A stretch of 64,000 nt of DNA, taken from positions 11,966,001 through 12,030,000 of the forward strand of contig NC_003279.8 of assembly GCF_000002985.6 (NCBI RefSeq). The letters are read 5' to 3'. Below are positions 3,848 through 63,556 of this stretch, in pieces. Numbering within the stretch: the stretch's first letter is position 1; each line of letters opens with the position of its first letter. Below the pieces are notes generated by a model that did no database searches, was not told the origin of the DNA, and saw only the letters and a program-made list of their open reading frames with translations. The translations under genes and the position numbers were made by a program. The stretch is from Caenorhabditis elegans. Taxonomy: Eukaryota; Nematoda; Chromadorea; Rhabditida; Rhabditidae.

Positions 3848-4025
3848 TTTTCGAACGGAGAATCTGGAAAATTGAGAAAAATCACTTAAATTTCACTTCT
3901 CGAAGATTTTTTGTGTTTGGAAAAGTTCAAAAAACAAAGAAAAATCGAAAAAATTTCATGCAAAAGCAGTCAAATTTGAGAAAAAATCGTTTCAAAATTC
4001 AGAAAAATATTTCGAAAAGTTTTGC

Positions 4026-4158
4026 GCGTCAAACATGGCGCATTGTACGCAAATGCGTACTTTTCAACTACCGTAGTTAGCTTTTTAAAACTACTTTTGC
4101 CAAACTACGGTAGTTGAGAAAGTGTGCACATGCATACAATGCGCCATGTTTGACGCGT
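4026..4158. mobile_element. Short palindromic element (foldback MITE)
   Basis: The left arm starts GCGTCAAACATGGCGCATTG and the right arm is its near-exact reverse complement ending at 4158. An inner pair of CTACCGTAGTT-type arms flanks a short loop. No coding capacity. It resembles dispersed C. elegans palindromic repeats. Confidence 0.8.
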
Positions 4159-4292
4159 AAAACTTAATTTCTAAGCGGTTTCCGTAAATTTTCCATGTTT
4201 TTCGTGTATTTTCACTGGAAAATCGAAGAAAAATTTAAGATAAATGCAAATTTTTAAATTAAATAAAAAATTGTGTAACTGTGATATATTCC

Positions 4293-4468
4293 CACGTGGA
4301 GTCAGAAAATCCCATTTTGCTTTGATCTACGAAAAATGCGGGAGAAGAGACGCATACGTCTCACCTGATTTCGCATGGTTAAGAACGTGCTGACGTCACA
4401 TTTTTTGGGCGGAAAATTCCCGCATTTTTTGTAGATCAAACTGTATTGAGACAGCCTGACACCACGTG
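4293..4468. mobile_element. CACGTG-ended palindromic MITE, copy 1
   Basis: CACGTG ends flank arms containing TGATCTAC(A)AAAAATGCGGG and its complement. The centre has the conserved block CGCATGGTTAAGAACGTGC followed by TGACGTCA. Three further copies occur at 4990-5152, 7662-7838 and 9304-9491. Confidence 0.8.
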
Positions 4469-4477
4469 ATTCCGGGC

Positions 4478-4838
4478 AGGGGTGTGCGGCAAATTTGCCG
4501 ATTTGCCGAAAATTGCCGACTTGCCGAGCTCGGCAAACTTGCCGATTTGCCAAATTCGGCAAATTTGAAAAAACCAGCAATTGCCGATTTGCCGAGCTCG
4601 GCAAATTTCGAAATTTGCGAAACTACTACACGAAACTAATTCAGAAACCAGATGTGTGTTAAGAATTCGGTAGTTTTGGTGTTCCAAAAAACATCAAAAA
4701 TTATCAAAATTTTCCGAGTTTTTTAAGCACGGCAAATTTGCCGAATTTGCCGAATTTGCCGAGCTCGGCAAATTTTGAAAAACCAGCAATTGCCGATTTG
4801 CCGAGCTCGGCAATTTTTTCCATTTGCCGCACACCCCT
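4478..4838. repeat. CGGCAAATTTGCCG minisatellite, two blocks
   Basis: Blocks of TTGCCGAGCTCGGCAAA-type units at 4478-4615 and 4733-4838 flank a short unique stretch. The unit is itself palindromic. The left block is directly adjacent to the CACGTG element. Confidence 0.75.
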
Positions 4839-4989
4839 GATTCCGGGCTCGGTGTTTCTCGTTTTTTTCAAAAAGATACACTGAAATCAGGGAAAATTAG
4901 TGGAAAAAATATAATTAAAAATGAAAGTTGCAAGCGCGCCTCATCGAACAAATGCTCTTGGCGGTAGTTCAAATTGGAATTAGACGCAA

Positions 4990-52639: not shown

Positions 52640-54778
52640 ACTCGAAATTTTTTGAATTAATTAATTAATTTATTTATTTATTTACGCTCGCGAGGAGACG
52701 TGGAAAAAGTTGAAGAAAAAAGAAAAATGTACACATACAATAGATCATAAATACAATACACTGAATAAGAGGGATAGAAACAAGAAGAAAAAATAGGAAC
52801 GAAAGTTTGTTAACAGGACAGTTAGGTCAGGCGGGAGGAAATAATGTTATGTGGGTAGTTCATGTTGCAATCATCAGTTGTCAGACATCTCGTTATTCAA
52901 GAGCTGATATATGTTTTAGAAACTTGGGGTTACTCAGCGTACGGTTTACAATAAAATGCTTTCTAGTTTTAGTTTTACATCTGCTCCATGAGACTTTCTT
53001 TTTGGAACGAGTTCGTGTGTTTTCAGAATATGTAAAAAATTCAGGTACGTTGAGATCTAGTTTACCATTAATCATCTTCATAATAGTTTTTCTGTCATAG
53101 ATTTGGCTTTTGGTTGAACTTTTTATAGACGAAGGCCCTAAGCTTAAACCCTAAGGTCAAGCCTAGGTCTGAGACTAGGCTAGATACAAGCTGCCATAGG
53201 AATTTCCGATCGATGCACCATGTGTCACTGGGCGGTCTCTCAAAATAGTCTGAAATAAAATTCCCTATCGGAAATTCCTCTAAAATGAGAACTTCGAGCC
53301 GAATCAACAATTTTCTCCATTCACTTCTAAACCAATCAGCTGGCAGAGTTCGAAGAACCCAACTTTTTTGAAAACTTTTCAAAATATACACAAAAAGATG
53401 TTGATATTAGATTCTGAATTAAAGTTTTGAATCCAAAGTTTTGAATTTGCAAGTTATGCAAGTTAACAAAGAGAGTCGTGTGCCCAGCTGTGGGGAAAAA
53501 ACAATTTTTTTAATTAGTATACCGTCACACCCAATCAATAAGTGGCAGGAACCCTTCCAAAGTGGTTTCATCACCATACCATACACACAATTTCTACGTC
53601 ACAACAGAGAGAGTGGCCTGCGAGCCTGTAGAGAGTGGTGAGCCTGTAGACATACACAGACAATCCACTGCCTCCTGCCTCTCTGCCTCTCTGCGAGAAT
53701 TCGTTAATTAAATTGTTTAAAAATTCAAATTTTTAATAGCAATTTTTGAAATTTTCTTTGAAATTTCTCACCGTGACACTAACTGGCCAAAACGACCTTT
53801 ACGACCTTTACAAAATGTTTATATACGGGGAAAAGTTCCCAATAAAAATCAAAATTAAAAGTTCACCATCTCGACGAAGAAGACTCGACGAAAGGATCAT
53901 GAGCTGCAATTGCCGTCTTCTGCCGATTTTGCTCGGTTTATTGCTCGTTAGCTGCTGTTAGAGAATACCATTTTGTCTTTTTGCGAGCACTTTGTATGAT
54001 GCAGAGAATTTTAAGTACTAATGGTGCGTCCATAGTCCATAGAAAATCCATAGAAAACCATAGAAAACCATAGAAATCCATAGAAAACGGGAATTTCCCG
54101 CGTGCGGAAGCGTCCATAGTCTGCGGAAAAACCGGAGTTCCTCGCTTTTTTTCCTCAAAATTCAAAAAAGTAGGCGTGGCCAACCAATCAGCTGTTGTTT
54201 CTTGTTTTCCCATTGCTCAGCTTAAAATTTTACAGCCTCTAATTGGCTGAACACGCCCACTATTTTGAAATTGACCAATAACAAAGCGAGAAACTCCTTT
54301 TGTCTGCAGCAGAGCCGATGTCAGCATGAGAGCATGTATGCATCAGAGCAATGTAAGCAGCTGAGTGTGTCAGCAGTTGAGAACGTCTTAGGGGGAATAT
54401 TTGCCAGGCAGTGATGAGGTAGACCGGAGGCTGTAGGCAAGCAAAGGTAGGCCTAGATGCAGGCTTGTAGGCTCATAGGCATCCAGTAGGTAATCAGGTC
54501 AGGAAACATCAGGCACCTACCCAGGCACGTAGGCAGACATGAGGCCGTCAGAATAAAATATGTATAATGTAGGCATGCAATAGGCATGAAGTAGGCATGG
54601 CACAGCAGGAGGCAGACACGCATAAAGTAGGTACCTTATTCGAAAATTTTGTTTTTTTTATTTCTAAAAACAAATTATTTAAAATCTACAAAAACCGTGA
54701 CCCCTTTAAACATAAAGAAAATTAGATAAAATTAGATAAAATCGATAAATTTTGGTTATTCTTTATAAATACTAGAGT
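52640..54778. other. Intergenic, gene-poor
   Basis: 3' flank of abt-5 (ATTAATTAATTAATTTATT), a CCTAAGCTTAAACCCTAAGG patch near 53140, a GATCGATGCACCATGTG fragment near 53208, four CCATAGAAAACC-like repeats at 54025-54090, and an AGGC-rich minisatellite at 54420-54640. No multi-exon gene found. Confidence 0.5.
53899..53961 (+). CDS. Possible 20-aa Cys-ended hydrophobic peptide
   Basis: ATG at 53899 begins a 20-codon frame with Cys pairs at both ends (MSCNCRLL ... VSCC) around a leucine-rich core, closed by TAG. It resembles a lone signal peptide. No splice donor follows. May be chance. Listed because the composition is striking. Confidence 0.2.
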   Translation: MSCNCRLLPILLGLLLVSCC

Positions 54779-56633
54779 ATGTACTCGACGCATATTCTCT
54801 CTACCTTGGTTGGTGTGTTGGTCTTAAGTACAGGTTAGTTTGCAGCCGACACTTCACTGGTGTCTCCAGCAGCCGATATCTTTCGGGGACCAGTAAAGTG
54901 TCGGCTGCTTTGTTTATGCCATGTTTCAGCAACAACCGCTACTTCAAATGTGTCCATCGCTACTACAAATTCCAACTCTTCGGTTCCAATCAATAGTTCA
55001 GTATTTCAAAGTAATCAGCCAATAGTTATTATTATTCCAACTGGAGCTAATAGCACCGGAATCGCCAATAATTCAATTGTTATCACTATTCCGAGGAATT
55101 TTGGAAGTCAAGGTCGTCCCTGTAACGTGAGCAGTGATGGTAAGAAACTGCAGGGAATCTGAAAATTATTCAGATTTTCGAATTTTTCAGATTACCTCAA
55201 GCCGTCATCTACACCAAGCCCAGGAGACGGTAGCCGAGTTCATAGTTCTGGTGAGCTTCAAGTTATGATGCTGAAAATGAGATGAATGTTTCAGATGAAC
55301 TGGAAGCTTATACGCGTTCTGATAATGAGGATCTTCCTTCTACTTCAAGCTCAGGAGACGGTAGCCAAGTTCAGAATTCTGGTGAGCTTAGGAAAGCTTG
55401 CTGAAAATTTGTTGAAAATTTCAGATGACCTGGAAGCTTATACACGTTCTGACGACAAGTCCTCCACCGCTAGCTCAGGGCCAAAGCCAATCAAGGCCAA
55501 TCACACGAACCTCTCTGCTCAAAAAAGCTTCAAATCTAAAGCAATTCCTTCTCGCAGACGCCAATTTTTCTCAGGTTTGTGCATCTTTCTGGTTTCACCT
55601 CAATCATCAAGTATTTTCAGCTCCAATAAATTCCAGTGCAAGGCGCAATAAGAGCCGACACCCAGCTCCAAACAAGAAGAATTTCACAGCACTCGATTTG
55701 GGATTTATGTCAGGTAACATTCTTATTGGCCGCAGATCTTGAATTGACAAAATTCAGGTTCAAAATTGAAGCCGCTTCGCAAGAAACTTGGAGCAAAAGG
55801 GAAAAACAACGGAGTTCGGGAGCTGGCCGCTGTGAGTTTTCGAGACGGACTTTACTTGTTAGGGAAGAACTAACGCGTGGGTTGAAGTGAAAAAGGAGCA
55901 TCACTCGGCTCGCTAGTATGTCCAGCCGTACTCATAGAATCTGACGCTGTAGACCTTGAGATTATCAGGATCCCCGGACTTTGGGATCTGAAGATCTGGA
56001 TCCGCAAAGTTGTGAAGCCTGAAAGATCTGGTACCGAGACCTATAGAATTTTAGAGTCTACTCGGCCTATTTCCATCAAATTCTTAGATTCCAGTAATTT
56101 CAATTTTCCAGCACAACCGGTCCCTCGAAATTCTCCCTGACGGAACACCACTCAGAAGTCTCGGCGAAAAGTACATTGTGAAGAATGGTCCGAACCAGTT
56201 TGGAAACTGGAGTAAGGTGGTTGCTAACAAGCATGGGTTCTACGTTCTGCATCCGGTGCAGACGAAGAATGTCACGGATATCTTTGATCCGTATACGATT
56301 GGACAAGTTTTGGGATATCTTTATGAGGTAGGGGTCAGCTGAATCAAAGGATCATTAGATCCAAATGAATCATCAGATCCAACTGGACCAAGTCCAAGTG
56401 GTTCCGGATCAGGTTCTGGACCAGGTTCTGGATCAGGCGAAGTTCCTGAGATAGATCACCTTTTTTCCACACTCATAGTCAGACCTACCTATTTTCAGCT
56501 TGCGGAGTTCGGCGGAGATGTACCTCCCAGTGGAAAATTTACGATTGACCTGATGAGCCTGCCAACTCCTCAGAAATTAAGTTCCAAGCGCCGTCGAGCA
56601 ATTCTTGTGTTCAAGAGGAAGAAGCAAGTATAG
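54779..56633 (+). CDS. Secreted Ser/Thr-rich protein, gene A of a tandem pair
   Basis: Nine exons: 54779-54833, 54930-55139, 55191-55250, 55295-55381, 55425-55574, 55621-55713, 55758-55831, 56112-56327 and 56499-56633, giving 359 aa with all phases consistent. Residues 1-19 (MYSTHILSTLVGVLVLSTG) are a signal peptide. Exon 2 is Ser/Thr/Asn-rich with many N-glycosylation sequons. Exons 3-5 are similar to each other (exons 4 and 5 share LEAYTRSD; exons 3 and 4 share SPGDGS/SSGDGS), a sign of exon duplication. Exons 6-7 are basic. Exons 8-9 encode a conserved ending FDPYTIGQVLGYLYE then FGGDVPPSGKFTIDLM and a basic tail with RRRAILVFKRKKQV. The C-terminal module is shared with the next gene. AATAAA at 56658. 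Intron 1 has an inverted pair CCGACACTTCACTGG / CCAGTAAAGTGTCGG. Family not recognised. Confidence 0.8.
56340..56455 (+). pseudogene. Relic repeat exon inside intron 8 of gene A
   Basis: Sequence such as GAATCATCAGATCCAACTGG and GGACCAAGTCCAAGTGG matches the repeat register of gene B (TCATCAGATCC, GGACCAAGTCCA). It reads DPNESSDPTGPSPSG followed by Gly-Ser repeats. It follows a TCATTAG that could be an acceptor, but no matching donor is visible. Confidence 0.5.
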
Positions 56634-56768
56634 AACTTATTTAAAGCTTAGCTAGAGAATAAATATTTATTGAAAACGTGACCTCTTTAGCAAAATCAAA
56701 AAAAAATCAAACATAATTCACCCATAACAAATTATTACTTTGTTTATCAACATCAATTGCTTCTTATC

Positions 56769-59700
56769 ATGGATTGGCTGATCGCTGTCTTTCTCGGGAC
56801 TATGCTTATTTCCGGAGGTTAGTGGATCTTGATAGGTTTCAGCTTAAGCTCTGAGGTAAATGAGAGCATAGTTTTTGTGCCACAAAGATTTCATATCGAG
56901 CTATTTTGGAGCTCTCAAGGGAATATGAGCTGAAACTTTTTATATTGTCATTTTATATTCTTCTCGAAAATCGAGTTCAATCGAGCATGCTGGGCTGACT
57001 TCAAGCTCAATTAGACCGGGTTCGGCCTTAGTTGGAATTGATTTAACAGAGCTACGGTATCTACAGTGCCGGCCAAAAACATATCCCATTTTCGATTTTT
57101 GATAAATTTACAAATTTTACAAACGAGCAGCACAACTTTAAAACTAGAAATGTTATCAAAAAAAGTATAACTGATGAAGTATCATTCATAATTACGTCTA
57201 CTTGTATTCAGTTGTTTAAATTTTTTACCAATGCCAGGACAAAAAATACAGCGGCCGACATCTCGTGAGCCGTTTTTGACAACGTTTACTGATTCGGCCG
57301 TATCTCGAAAACAAAATTTTTTCTGGAAATGTTGTTAGAGTAAAATATTCTTCACACTATTTGTCATCGTTTGTGCCTACTCACTTTGCTTTCAAAAATC
57401 CTGCAAAAAAGTTATGGGAGTGCAAACTTGAATAGTGTACGGCCACGCCTCGAATATTTCTCGCAAACGATGAATTTTTTTCCTGAATCTTGATATTGCG
57501 TTTGAATATAGCTTAATTGTGATTTTACATGTGTTATTTCTAGAAAATGCTCGAAAAAAATATTTTGAACTAAGTAACCTGATTTTTGGTTGTAGTGGGT
57601 AGGTGGCACCTAGTGAGCGACAAGTTTGCACTCCCATAACTTTTTTGCTGGATTTTTCAGAACAAAGTGAATAGACACAAACGATGACAAATAGTCTGAA
57701 GACTATTTCCCTATAACAACATTTCCTGAAACAATTTAGTTTTCGTGATACGGCCGAATCAGTAAAAGTTGTCAAAAACGGGCTCACGAGATGTCGGCCG
57801 TTGTATTTTTTGTCGTTACACTGGTAAACAACTTAAACAATTGAATACAAGTAGACGAAATCATGGGCAATAATTCATCAGTTGAACTTTTCTCGATAAG
57901 TTTTCTAGTTTTAAAGTTGTGCTCGTTTGGAAAATTTGCAAATTTACCAAAAAACGAAAACGGGATATGTTTTTGGCCGGCACTGTAGTTTTCAATCTTA
58001 AAATTTCCAGATCACGCCCAACACGCCAGCAACATCACGGTTACCCATCCATCCGTCAACGGAGCCACCTCTCGTCTATACCTTACCACAATTGAAATCG
58101 GTGGTGGGGATTAGCCGAATAGTATAATTATACATGTCCCACCGGATGAAGGAATTTTGAATGGGAATTTAACTATTATTGAGATCAATGGAATACCTGA
58201 TGGAGCAAATATCACGTGCCTTGCGGGTGGAGAAACTGACACGGATGTGCTAATAATTGAGGTTCTGCCGGGAGGAGGGGTGGTTATAAGAAATGGAACT
58301 GATTCTAAAGATGGTAAGATTTAGGACTGTAGTAGGAAGAAGAAAACAAGCCAAAAACAAGCCTTGCCTGCTGAAGTTGTCTAGTATTAATCAGACCGGT
58401 TTCGGGGCTCCGGTTATGGAAAACAAAAGTCGCCATACAAAAAGACATGGTGCATCATCTGAGTTTGACTTTTTACTTCAGCTCAACATAGAAAATGTCT
58501 GCAATTTCAGCCAACCTTATACTTACTCTGTGCTCTTTAATAACAACTTGCTCTGTAAAATTGAGAGAAAGTAGAACTTAAATTCTGTAAAATGCTATAC
58601 ATTATAATTTTCTTATTTTTTCCAGAATCCAGCGGTTCTTCTCTTTCTAAAAGTACACCTTCCTTCCTGAGCCCAACTGATTCCTTGACAGCTACAACGC
58701 CACCAGGATCAACCACACGTATGAAAATTCGTTCTGGAAGGTTACGTACTTTACTGTTTTTATTTTCAGAAGCCGCTAGCACCACGGAATCTGCAATGGC
58801 TTCGAGCATCGAGTCTCCGACGGCTAGTGTTACAGTGTCAAGTCCAAGTAAAAATCCTTGTCAAAACCCGAAAAATGAAACTTTTTGTCTTTCAGAATCC
58901 ACAGAGCCACTTGGCACAAGTTCAGCGATACCAACTGCACCTGATCATTCTACAGTACACGATGGAAGCTCAAGCACGACAAAGGGATTGATATATCCGT
59001 TGGAACCTGATGAAAGTTCCAGTGGTACTATGGATATGACCACTCCAACGTCAACTACTGATTTGGCAACATCAAGTTCCACCAGTGTCTTCAATACTAC
59101 TGCAAGGTCAAGTTCCTTGCCTGGTTCCACTTCCACAATGTCAGTGACTACCTCAATAGCATCAACGTCCCCGGAAACTACATCAAGCACTGTCACTGGA
59201 ACATCAGAGGGTACGACATTCATTACTGATTCTACCACTGGTTTCGTGCCTCTAGTTTTCACGAATTGGCCACGTGGTTCCACGATTGTTACTTCAACTT
59301 CCAGTACTTCCACAAGACCAGTGACTCCGTCTACCGCATTCGATTCGTCTACAACATCAGAAACTTCCGTAGCAACGTCAGAGGGTACTACATCCATCAC
59401 TGAATCTACCACTGATTTGATGCCTCCAGTTTTTACGAATTGGCCACCTGATTCCACGATCATTACTTCAACTTCCAGTACTTCCACAAGACCAGGGACT
59501 TCGTCTACCGCAACCGATTCCCCTACAATGGACGATACATCAAAAACTTCCACAGTAACGTCAGAGGGCACTACATTGTCCATTGAAAGTACCGAATCCT
59601 CAGCTTCGCCTTCTGATTTTACGACTCCAGATTTTATAGGCTTCACATCAAGTGTCTCCAGGACCTCTGAACAATATTCCTCGAGTTCCCCGTCTTCTGA

Positions 59701-62298
59701 TACTACAACGATGGATGTCACCTCTACAGTGTCGACAACTACTTCGAGCACTTTCATTGCAAAACCTCAGGCTACAACGGCGAGTACCGAGAATCCAGAG
59801 TCCGCAGCTCCCTTGGATGCTTCCACTCTGGATTCTTCCACAATAGCGTATTCTAGTACTACTCCAATTATTGCAAGGTCTTCGGAAGCATCTTCAACTG
59901 GTAAGGCAGATTACTACTGCTGTTAGAACCCATCAATTTAATTTTCAGATACAAGATCCACGACATCAACAATTTTCACTTCTTCGGAGATTCGACCGAC
60001 TTCTAGCATCACTATATTGGGCGTTGAGTCGACTACAGCTTCATCAACTGGATCCACAACGTCCGAGTCAACCACCAGCTCCACAGAACCTCCAACAACA
60101 CAGGAAGGTAATACTATTGATCGTAGTTTAATGATAATTTTTTTTTTTTCAATTTCCGAATCCAACACGACCACTACATTGTCGAGTACTACTCCGTTTA
60201 CAACATCATCCACCGAGTCGTTCACCAGAGGAGGTTTCATTCCACCGATCCCCGTGCCGAATCCTATACCGAAACCAAACCCAGGACCAGGACCAGGACC
60301 ACCATCGCCAAATGGACCATCAGATCCAAATAAGCCAAGTCCGAATGGACCAAGTCCAAATGGACCAAATGGACCATCAGATCCAAATAAGCCAGGACCA
60401 AGTGGACCAAATGGGCCATCAGATCCAAATAAGCCAAGTCCAAATGGACCATCAGATCCAGTTAAGCCAAGTCCAAGTGGACCAAGTCCAAATGGACCAA
60501 GTCCAAATGGGCCAAGTCCAAATGGGCCAAGTCCCAATGGACCAAGTCCAAATGGGCCAACTCCAAATTGGCCAAGTCCAAATGGGCCAAGTCCAAATGG
60601 ACCAAATGGACCATCAGATCCAAACAAGCCAGGACCAAATGGACCAAATGGGCCATCAGATCCGAATAAGCCAGGACCAAATGGACCAAATGAGCCATCA
60701 GATCCGAATAAGCCAGGACCAAATGGACCAAATGGACCGTCAGATCCAAATAAGCCAGGACCAAATGGACCAAATGAGCCATCAGATCCAAATAAGCCAG
60801 GACCAAATGGACCAAATGGGCCATCAGATCCGAATAAGCCAGGACCAAATGGACCAAATGAGCCATCAGATCCGAATAAGCCAGGACCAAATGGACCAAA
60901 TGGACCGTCAGATCCAAATAAGCCAGGACCAAATGGACCAAATGGACCATCAGATCCGAATAAGCCAGGACCAAATGGACCAAATGAGTCATCAGATCCG
61001 AATAAGCCAGGACCAAATGGACCAAATGAGCCATCAGATCCAAATAAGCCAGGACCAAATGGACCAAATGGACCATCAGATCCGAATAAGCCAGGACCAA
61101 ATGGACCAAATGAGCCATCAGATCCAAATAAGCCAGGACCAAATGGATCAAATGGACCATCAGATCCAAATAAGCCAGGACCAAATGGACCAAATGGACC
61201 ATCAGATCCGAATAAGCCAGGACCAAATGGACCAAATGAGCCATCAGATCCAAATAGGCCAGGACCAAATGGACCAAATGGACCGTTAGATCCAAATAAG
61301 CCAGGACCAAATGGACCAAATGGACCATCAGATCCGAATAAGCCAGGACCAAATGGACCAAATGGACCATCAGATCCAAATAAGCCAGGACCAAATGGAC
61401 CAAATGAGCCATCAGATCCAAATAAGCCAGGACCAAATGGACCAAATGGACCATCAGATCCAAATAAGCCAGGACCAAATGGACCAAATGGGCCATCAGA
61501 TCCGAATAAGCCAGGACCAAATGGACCAAATGAGCCATCAGATCCGAATAAGCCAGGACCAAATGGACCAAATGGATCGTCAGATCCGAATAAGCCAGGA
61601 CCAAATGGACCATCAAATCCAAGTGTACCTGAGTCGTCAACAGGAGGAGGCCCGAGCCCGGGACCAAGTCCAAATGAACCATCAAATCCAAGTATACTTG
61701 GGCCGTCAACAGGAGGAGACCCGAGCCCGGGACCAAGTCCAAATGAACCATCAAATCCAAGTATACTTGGGCCGTCAACAGGAGGAGACCCGAGCCCGGG
61801 ACCAAGTCCAAATGGACCATCAAATCCAAGTGTACCTGAGTCGTCAACAGGAGGAGGCCCGAGCCCGGGACCAGCTCCAGATCCAGGAACTAGTGATCCA
61901 AACAAGGATCCTGAGAAGAAAAGCACCAAGAAAAGTAAGTAAATTAATAGAGTTTAGACTGTAAATTTTAAATTTTCAGATAGAAAAACTACAACTTCTA
62001 CATCCACATCCACTTCTACCACAGAATCCACGACTACTGATACGACCACCACGGAGCCAGGCATCATGTTCGATCCATACACTATTGGCCAACTCTTAGG
62101 ATATATTTACGAGGTAGGAACTTTAAGTTCAAAGTTTTCAACTCCAATTTTCAGACCGAAGAATTTGGAGCCAAACGTCCAGAGGATGGGTATACAATTG
62201 AATTGATGAAGCATCCAATACTGGAGAGAATTTACCCAGCGAATACGAAAACTCGACGTGCTACATTGATTTTCAGGAAGAAGCCGGATACAAATTGA
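56769..62298 (+). CDS. Secreted mucin-like repeat protein, gene B of a tandem pair (in-frame TAG)
   Basis: Exons: 56769-56817, 58011-58313, 58626-58718, 58770-58847, 58896-59900, 59949-61934, 61980-62113 and 62155-62298, about 1263 codons. The signal peptide is MDWLIAVFLGTMLISG. Exon 5 is Ser/Thr-rich with a duplicated block of about 60 residues containing VFTNWP. Exon 6 carries the 14-residue Pro/Asn/Gly repeat. The last two exons give FDPYTIGQLLGYIYE then EEFGAKRPEDGYTIELM and a basic RRATLIFRKK tail, paralogous to gene A. All introns are phase 1 except the last (phase 0), as in gene A. TAG at 58112-58114 interrupts exon 2 without a splice escape that I can find, so the locus may be a recent pseudogene, a readthrough gene, or contain a base error. 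Heavy O-glycosylation and secretion are expected from composition. Confidence 0.7.
57064..57985. mobile_element. Tc/mariner-type foldback element in intron 1 of gene B
   Basis: Ends CAGTGCCGGCCAAAAACATA and its complement, flanked by TA on both sides. The arms match over about 450 bases (for example GCAGCACAACTTTAAAACTA / TAGTTTTAAAGTTGTGCTCG) and meet near 57525. No transposase, so non-autonomous. Confidence 0.88.
59205..59575 (+). repeat. Direct duplication of about 180 bp in the Ser/Thr-rich exon
   Basis: Two blocks starting TCAGAGGGTACKACATYC at about 59209 and 59389 share TTTCACGAATTGGCCACST-like and ACTTCAACTTCCAGTACTTC sequence. A third partial start (TCAGAGGGCACTACATTG) is near 59560. 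Confidence 0.8.
60300..61615 (+). repeat. 42-bp coding tandem repeat array
   Basis: About two dozen 42-base units (core GGACCAAATGGACCATCAGA then TCCRAATAAGCCAGGACCAA) encode PNGPNGPSDPNKPG and the variant PNGPNEPSDPNKPG. The first 300 bases hold shorter PSPNGPSPNG-type units. The unit length is a multiple of three and lacks stops, so other frames on both strands are also open. Confidence 0.95.
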
Positions 62299-62653
62299 TT
62301 TTTTCGCAGAGAAATTAGATGTCAGAAAAAAAGAAAAACAATAACGGAAAAGTGATCAAAGTTATTATCATTATGTTACTTTTCTGTAAATAAATGCGAT
62401 TTTGAAAGTCTGTGAAAACTACAGTACTCCTTAATGGTGCACACTCCATTTCCCGGCCGCGGGTCTAAGTACAGACCAACTACAGTAATCTTGCGTCTCG
62501 TGGGTTTAGCTTCTGGCACACTTTTGTATACCGTAATTCTTGCTCGACATAAAAATTTTCTTGCTCGACATATAACTATTTTTTTACATGTTTCCTCCAA
62601 TTTTTCTTTATATTCTTTCGAAACATTATAAATTTTTCAATTTTCAGGTAAAA
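62299..62653. other. Short intergenic region
   Basis: Polyadenylation signal AATAAA near 62389 for gene B. The sequence before 62654 ends in TTTTCAATTTTCAGGTAAAA, a candidate trans-splice acceptor. No other feature. Confidence 0.5.
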
Positions 62654-62799
62654 ATGGCTGAAAAAATCAACGAACTGTCAGAAGACCTGCAAAATGTCAA
62701 CATTGTCGAACAAAAGTGCAGAGACTGGACACAGATGCCGCCGGAAATTAAGACCAAATGCATTTAGCCGCTGGATTTCATTGCCAGGTAATTATTTGT

Positions 62800-62965
62800 G
62801 TTAGGCTTAGGTTTAGTCTCAGGCTTAGGTCTTGGCCTAGGCTTAGGCTTAGGCATAGGTCTTGGCTTAGGCTTAGGCTAAGGCCCAGGCTTAGGTTTAG
62901 GCTCAGTCTTAGGCTTAGGCTCAGGCTTAGTTTTAAGCTTAAGCTTAGGCTCAGGCTCAGGCGGC
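62800..62965. repeat. Interstitial TTAGGC array, first intron of the F-box relic
   Basis: Near-perfect TTAGGC units with a few variants (TTGGCC, TCAGGC), about 25 copies. Plus-strand orientation, opposite to the rga-2 intron 9 array. Confidence 0.9.
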
Positions 62966-63556
62966 ATTTTCAGTGATTTTTTTCCAATTTTTGCTCCAAG
63001 ATCTTTTCGGAGAAAATTCATAAATAAACCGGAATTTTTTTCAAAATGAAGCTGCGATCGACATTATTCTCCAACAAAATCGTAGTGGATTCAACGCGAT
63101 ACAAATTCCGAAAACTTGTAATCAATGATTCAAGATGTCTGATTGGTTGGAGTGAAATTCCGAATGAAGAAATTGGAAGTGGAAAAGAATTTGCGTTCAA
63201 TTATTTTCGGAACAAAAACTATGGATCACTGTTCGCATACATTTTGACCAATTGTGACATTGGGCAGCTCCAGGTTAGACAATCACTTTTGGATGATGAT
63301 TTGAAAGTGATGGAAGAAATTGATCCAAAGCGGATGAAAATCAACAGCCTTGAAGTTTGCATCAATGAGAATATGACAGTGCTTCTCCTGGAAAAAGCCT
63401 GGAACGTGGAAGTTGTGATAATTCCATTTATTGGAGGTCGAGCTTTTGAAGTCACCACAGCTCATGTTTTTCCGCTGTTTGTTAGAATAAAAATTAACTT
63501 TTAAAAAGCTTGCAACAGTTTGGAAGTGACGTGAGAGAGTTGAGCTTGATACTTGT

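Follow-up and report, generated by a model that had tools for sequence, protein, structure and literature searches.

Two genes that lie in tandem on chromosome I of Caenorhabditis elegans, here called gene A and gene B, end in closely similar exons. Do they belong to one protein family by virtue of this ending, and what might such a family do? The stretch of DNA analysed (the window) comprises 64,000 nucleotides (C1:11966001-12030000, C1 being chromosome I), and searches of the genome covered seven contigs with 100,286,401 bases. An earlier note on the window had named the pair as a candidate for an undescribed protein family with variable middles and a shared C-terminal module. This expectation was borne out in the one genome searched, where a third gene, gene C, carries the module together with a different middle.

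A C-terminal module defines a small gene family

Gene A was modelled as a spliced open frame of nine exons encoding 359 residues (54779..56633, forward strand; exons 54779-54833, 54930-55139, 55191-55250, 55295-55381, 55425-55574, 55621-55713, 55758-55831, 56112-56327 and 56499-56633). Gene B follows on the same strand as a model of eight exons (56769..62298; exons 56769-56817, 58011-58313, 58626-58718, 58770-58847, 58896-59900, 59949-61934, 61980-62113 and 62155-62298). The splice sites of both models were picked by eye. As had been claimed, both genes end in an exon encoding FDPYTIGQ(V/L)LGY(L/I)YE, a phase-0 intron and an exon encoding EFG..TI(D/E)LM and a basic tail, and the two endings are 50% identical over 60 residues (expect value, E, 7e-19). 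Exon 8 of gene A (56112..56327), the opening part of the module, ends FDPYTIGQVLGYLYE, and exon 9 (56499..56633) encodes EFGG..KFTIDLM followed by the basic tail, as seen in the model, in the genome search and in A1, an alignment of four module sequences that was used as the module profile. In gene B, exon 7 of 8 contributes FDPYTIGQLLGYIYE (62069..62113, forward strand; genome search, model and A1), and the last exon encodes EEFGAKRPEDGYTIELM and then the basic tail (62155..62298, forward strand; model, A1 and the pairwise match to A).

When the last 60 residues of gene A were used as a genome query, at least nine places were found, which are exons of five loci: genes A and B, gene C on contig C4 and two fragments on C2. 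Gene C as query also returned at least nine places, in the same five loci; these searches were single-protein queries and the counts of places are lower bounds. Gene C (C4:14519866-14520967) is open throughout and consists of a signal-like start, a Pro/Gly/Gln-rich middle and the module (exons 3867-3924, 4024-4092, 4141-4316, 4542-4745 and 4795-4968 in the numbering of piece L010). The complete layout of signal-like start, middle and module exons is present in three of the five loci, namely A, B and C.

Much of A and B is of low complexity, and their similarity could on that account be a chance likeness. However, the stretch that gave E 7e-19 between A and B, and E 4e-21 between C and B (each from a single pairwise comparison), is not of low complexity, and a phase-0 intron lies at the same position of the module in all three genes. 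We take chance similarity as refuted, with next to no probability left to it.

The intron phases described earlier for both genes, phase 1 throughout except for a last intron of phase 0, fit gene B (introns 1-6 and intron 7, respectively). They do not fit gene A, in which six introns of phase 1 are followed by two of phase 0, introns 7 and 8. The phases of gene C are 1, 1, 0 and 0; hence, two phase-0 introns around the module are common to A and C. A module that starts at FDPYTIG, as proposed earlier, describes gene B, which has the module from this point onward only. In A and C conservation begins about 55 residues ahead of FDPYTIG, a part that B lacks. Exon 4 of gene C is 64% identical to exon 8 of gene A over residues 4-68 of the C exon, and the module in these two genes therefore comprises 115-125 residues. 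Across the four sequences of A1, 26 columns are invariant, 20 of which lie from FDPYTIG to LM, upstream of the tail. The module contains no cysteine in A, B or C.

Outside the module the proteins are unlike each other in the part compared. Homology between exon 2 of gene A and exon 2 of gene B seemed likely by eye but was not borne out, since the two gave no alignment at E<=100; as genome queries, each exon matched only itself. The common part of A and B is therefore the C-terminal module. Genes A, B and C thus form a real small family, united by the C-terminal module while the middles vary; it is the module, and not mucin composition, that defines the family.

Both loci on C2 are fragments. 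One is a 5'-truncated copy (C2:2050026-2050343, minus strand), with proportions of synonymous (pS) and nonsynonymous (pN) differences from gene C of 0.17 and 0.05 over 85 codons. The other is a piece of the family's last exon, the alignment of which crosses a TGA (C2:2068889-2069080). By eye, part of a family last exon lies directly behind the frame of another gene (piece L012, 5924-6096), and a second short piece was seen upstream, by eye only (L012, 3841-3895). The last-exon piece in L012 was read as a decayed copy or as an exon pasted into another gene.

Selection on the module and its absence from the catalogues searched

Between A and C, pS was 0.708 and pN 0.267 over 111 codons (0.746 and 0.157 in a hand-picked stretch of 60 codons). 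Over 33 codons the corresponding values were 0.768 and 0.179 for B against C, and 0.907 and 0.213 for B against A. The synonymous sites are at or near saturation while the amino acid sequence persists; the module is therefore translated and under constraint, which for B held at least until recently. Selection has kept the module.

The view that the module corresponds to no known domain was upheld in the catalogues searched, with no match above threshold in Pfam, NCBIfam or the sequences of PDB. The modules of A and B gave no match in Pfam at E<=10. The whole of gene A had no Pfam match, and gene C matched only Toxin_10, far under the cut-off (11.9 bits against 28.6), which was taken as chance. 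NCBIfam gave no match for any of the four module members, and the module profile had none in PDB by sequence. A match of gene C alone to heparinase II chains in PDB (E 0.11) and one of a single member out of four to phrog_28568 in PHROGs (E 0.21) were likewise attributed to chance. Stretches with the pattern numbered 36 in GTDB genomes and 34 in IMG/VR, none of which was confirmed, and a query with the gene C module found no match in phages. A literature search on FDPYTIG, GPNGPSDPN and DPYTIGQ found nothing. The family is thus absent from Pfam, NCBIfam, PDB sequences, GTDB and IMG/VR at the thresholds used. It may have an unnamed entry in PANTHER or InterPro, as excerpts of PMC11925461 report for SPIA-1 (PTHR37435).

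The proteins differ in their middles

Hydrophobic N-terminal stretches are present in the models of all three genes, with 10-residue hydropathy means of 2.66 (A), 2.62 (B) and 2.69 (C); signal peptides were judged from these means, with no control. The signal peptides previously assigned to A and B agree with the N termini of the models, but gene B is not plainly an intact secreted gene, as its frame carries a stop at codon 51 (see below). Judged by hydropathy, the products of A, B and C are probably secreted.

The middle of gene A contains 25% Ser plus Thr and 9% Asn, with 11 sequons for N-glycosylation. In gene B, 552 residues ahead of the repeat contain 46% Ser plus Thr. They are followed by a Pro/Gly/Asn region of 559 residues, which is mainly an array of 42-nucleotide units (14 residues, GPNGPSDPNKPGPN type; 60308..61612, forward strand) with 25 matches to DPN(K/R)PGP. 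The Ser/Thr/Asn-rich middles of the earlier description are accordingly found in A and in B ahead of the repeat, but not in these 559 residues. The middle of gene C is Pro/Gly/Gln-rich, with 11% Ser plus Thr and no Ser/Thr-rich region, and gene C has no sequon. In its Ser/Thr content and long tandem repeats gene B resembles C. elegans mucins; gene C, with no Ser/Thr-rich region, differs from them.

Several features of gene A were noted in passing. Its intron 1 (54834-54929) consists mostly of one hairpin (54842-54908; -39.2 kcal/mol, z -5.3). A copy at C2:13502158-13502229, 82% identical over bases 5-78, folds too (z -4.9). The hairpin, which had no match in Rfam up to E 1, was read as microRNA-like or as a small palindromic repeat element. 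Exons 3-5 (55208-55452) contain partial tandem duplicates about 130 nucleotides apart (families D13 and D14). Within intron 8, positions 56346-56405 share 68% identity with the gene B repeats (family D3) and lie in the open frame of the last exon (56343-56633); this looks like repeat sequence moved into an intron, or like an exon that was lost.

The reading frame of gene B carries a stop codon

Exon 2 of the gene B model contains an in-frame TAG as codon 51 (58112-58114, forward strand), with separate open frames on either side; past it, 1,212 codons are open to the final stop. Owing to this stop, gene B either has become a pseudogene recently or is translated from a later start. A candidate alternative start is the ATG at 58593 (58593..58625, forward strand), which reads MLYIIIFLFFP.. 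and runs into exon 3 within the open frame 58565-59926. TTTCAG occurs upstream of it at 58505, and a hydrophobic start of gene B at this ATG is possible. Further down, an apparent former intron of 45 nucleotides (60108-60152, forward strand) has kept its GT donor and reads CCG at the place of the acceptor; it was modelled as coding because it is in frame and free of stops.

Should gene B be a recent pseudogene here, only A and C would be functional and the repeats of B would be free to drift. Both the TAG and the altered acceptor fit this. On the other hand, for each unit of neutral divergence the model as a whole would be expected to take about 136 nonsense changes and it has one, a comparison that is overstated because the repeats are included and can be homogenised, and the 1,212 codons after the TAG have stayed open. 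In the module of B protein changes are few while synonymous ones are saturated, the promoter block described below is retained, and translation from 58593 could avoid the stop. We regard a pseudogene as a serious prospect, somewhat short of an even chance.

A foldback some 930 bases long (57061-57988) lies in intron 1 of gene B; its arms of 161, 149 and 69 nucleotides are 85-93% complementary, and it is probably a transposon-derived palindrome. On the 3' side of gene B, 62650-63504 resembles by eye a fragment of an F-box-type gene with an early stop (frame ending at 62767); Pfam gave no match for 63028-63501 at E<=0.05. Interstitial repeats of the AGGCTTAGGCTTAGG type (family D5) occupy 62803-62980, and we take them to be close to the nematode telomere unit TTAGGC.

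A promoter block is common to the three genes

Upstream of gene A, 83 bases ahead of its ATG, lies the block CGTGACCCCTTTA (54696..54708, forward strand). Its counterpart CGTGACCTCTTTA (56677..56689, forward strand) is found between the 3' end of A and gene B, 92 bases ahead of the ATG of B. The motif CGTGACC is located at -83 in A, at -92 in B and at -279, -234 and -169 in C. The genome contains a 13-base pattern, CGTGACCYSTTWA, 10 times and its reversed control 20 times; three of the 10 copies lie in front of the family genes, 83 bases upstream for A, 92 for B and 169 for C. Because the pattern was written from these promoters, it points to common descent or constraint, and is a candidate element only. 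The 7-mer CGTGACC alone is weak evidence; 1399 of 3000 random triples shared some 7-mer. GATA-type sites also occur upstream of all three genes, uncontrolled and of a kind common in A+T-rich DNA, and we take a nuclear-receptor half-site, RGGTCA, to be readable in the block. The promoter block is common to A, B and C, and suggests that the three genes are expressed together.

Gene C has a divergent neighbour on the minus strand (L010, 3459 down to about 1130) with a long Glu/Pro/Thr-rich frame. The product of this neighbour matches the domain of vitelline membrane outer layer protein I (VOMI, E 2.1e-50). The 0.4 kilobases between gene C and this VOMI-type gene contain three copies of CGTGACC.

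Neighbouring genes and gene names

Neighbouring frames in the window matched Pfam models for RhoGAP, lipid desaturase, FTH and ABC transporter. From the types of neighbouring genes and from gene names we tentatively take the clone to be Y53C10A. Y53C10A.10 may be gene A or gene B. For Y53C10A.10, excerpts of PMC10081768 list 3 / 0 mean reads per kilobase per million, comparing endodermal precursor cells with embryo, and, for gastrulation defects, the entry '8.3 (2/12)'; we used neither as evidence. Excerpts of PMC4500601 equate hsf-1 with Y53C10A.12. Y47H10A.5, described in excerpts of PMC12381656 and PMC2851571 as a RAI1-like gene regulated by miR-243, was also considered as a gene identity and dropped, as the window does not contain the miR-243 target pattern.

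A possible role in the apical extracellular matrix

The layout of the family recalls the cysteine-cradle proteins. According to excerpts of PMC11925461, these are six proteins, the mucin-like DPY-6 included, in which variable disordered chains are joined to one common C-terminal domain, the cradle, with four invariant cysteines and four helices. A, B and C resemble SPIA-1, DPY-6 and the four others in that they appear to be secreted (here by hydropathy), combine a variable chain, its disorder judged here by composition, with one C-terminal module, and are few paralogues on more than one chromosome. Unlike the cradle with its four invariant cysteines, the module of A, B and C has none. A search of the whole genome with PF23626 (CCD_aECM) found seven places, none at A, B, C or the fragments; the three genes lie outside that family.

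Given this cysteine-cradle-like layout, the module may be read as a docking or assembly module of the apical matrix or of a luminal coat. We give an even chance to the proposal that A, B and C make up a small family of nematode proteins that are secreted, of low complexity and part of an apical matrix or luminal coat, where a module without cysteines docks them; the location, for which cuticle, eggshell or mucosa had been suggested earlier, and the docking are drawn by analogy. The signal peptide would send the proteins out of the cell, the variable Ser/Thr/Asn-, mucin- or Pro/Gly/Asn-rich chain would act as a hydrated spacer, and the module would dock this chain into the apical extracellular matrix or luminal coat. 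Through the shared promoter block the three genes would be expressed together.

The C terminus offers a possible switch. In gene A, KRRR (56586..56597, forward strand), 11 residues ahead of the C terminus, is the sole match to [RK]x[RK]R in 359 residues. Gene B, read from the TAG onward (1,212 residues), has a single match, KTRR (62248..62259, forward strand), 12 residues ahead of the C terminus; gene C has two matches. The site is aligned in A, B and C, the columns RRA and then L, F and K being invariant in the four sequences of A1 (context RRA(T/I)L(V/I)F(K/R)(K/R)K), and the tails that follow the RR comprise 11 (A), 12 (B) and 15 (C) residues. ZP matrix proteins undergo dibasic cleavage near the C terminus, ahead of a hydrophobic stretch. 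Furin-like cleavage at the C terminus is an assembly step in many of them, according to excerpts of PMC11304992. With this precedent and the aligned RR site, the same step is worth considering for A, B and C, which would share with ZP-domain proteins a matrix-type character and a possible dibasic site ahead of a hydrophobic stretch. Pfam found no ZP domain in A, in C, in the module of B, in B exon 2 after the TAG or in B exons 3-5, these being the parts scanned. A protease of the kexin or furin type may cut at the conserved RR, just ahead of the last hydrophobic stretch; cleavage would remove the basic tail of 11-15 residues and thereby switch on assembly, as in many ZP proteins. A stronger form of the idea would make the module a second, nematode-specific device for apical-matrix assembly that has no cysteines and is blocked by its own C-terminal strand until a protease of the furin type removes it. 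This would be an independent ZP-type switch with co-regulated genes and exchangeable spacers. We consider this form unlikely.

The same site, followed by a short basic tail in all three proteins, would also fit the precursor of a short cationic peptide, in which a kexin-type protease frees the 11-15-residue tail to act on microbes in a lumen or at a surface. An antimicrobial peptide of this length would be very short, and the 20 of 26 invariant columns upstream of it would be left unexplained; this seems to us quite improbable. Nor need the proteins belong to a matrix at all. The hydrophobic N terminus, on which the signal peptide rests by hydropathy only, might be a signal anchor, or the proteins might be trafficked or intracellular, with the Arg/Lys tail as a retention or nuclear signal. 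The basic clusters at the C terminus and the lack of a sequon in gene C are compatible with this, whereas the 11 sequons in the middle of A and the Ser/Thr-rich chains of A and B fit the secretory route, and Pfam scans of the parts examined gave no cytoplasmic domain above threshold. A non-matrix role thus appears rather unlikely.

Several points count against the matrix proposal and the co-expressed, switchable family that goes with it. The basic tail may stay uncut, as an internal strand. Structure prediction, suggested earlier as a check on the module, gave no usable model: AlphaFold on single sequences reached a mean predicted local distance difference test score of 36.6 for A read through its intron and 49.0 for exon 8 alone. 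The fold is therefore not established, and the strands and helix in these models are a hint only. The reading frame of gene B is interrupted at codon 51. The count of CGTGACCYSTTWA copies was made post hoc, and among 3000 random triples drawn from the retrieved DNA, 49 also had in common a 7-mer containing four or more G or C.

The family is ordinary in kind and modestly interesting in detail. A conserved and apparently secreted module is present in what appears to be the best-known worm genome without an entry in the catalogues searched. If A, B and C are indeed matrix components, they would provide a small genetic set, with A and C intact and B interrupted, for the docking and switching of disordered chains, and a layout of the cysteine-cradle type would have been reached more than once.

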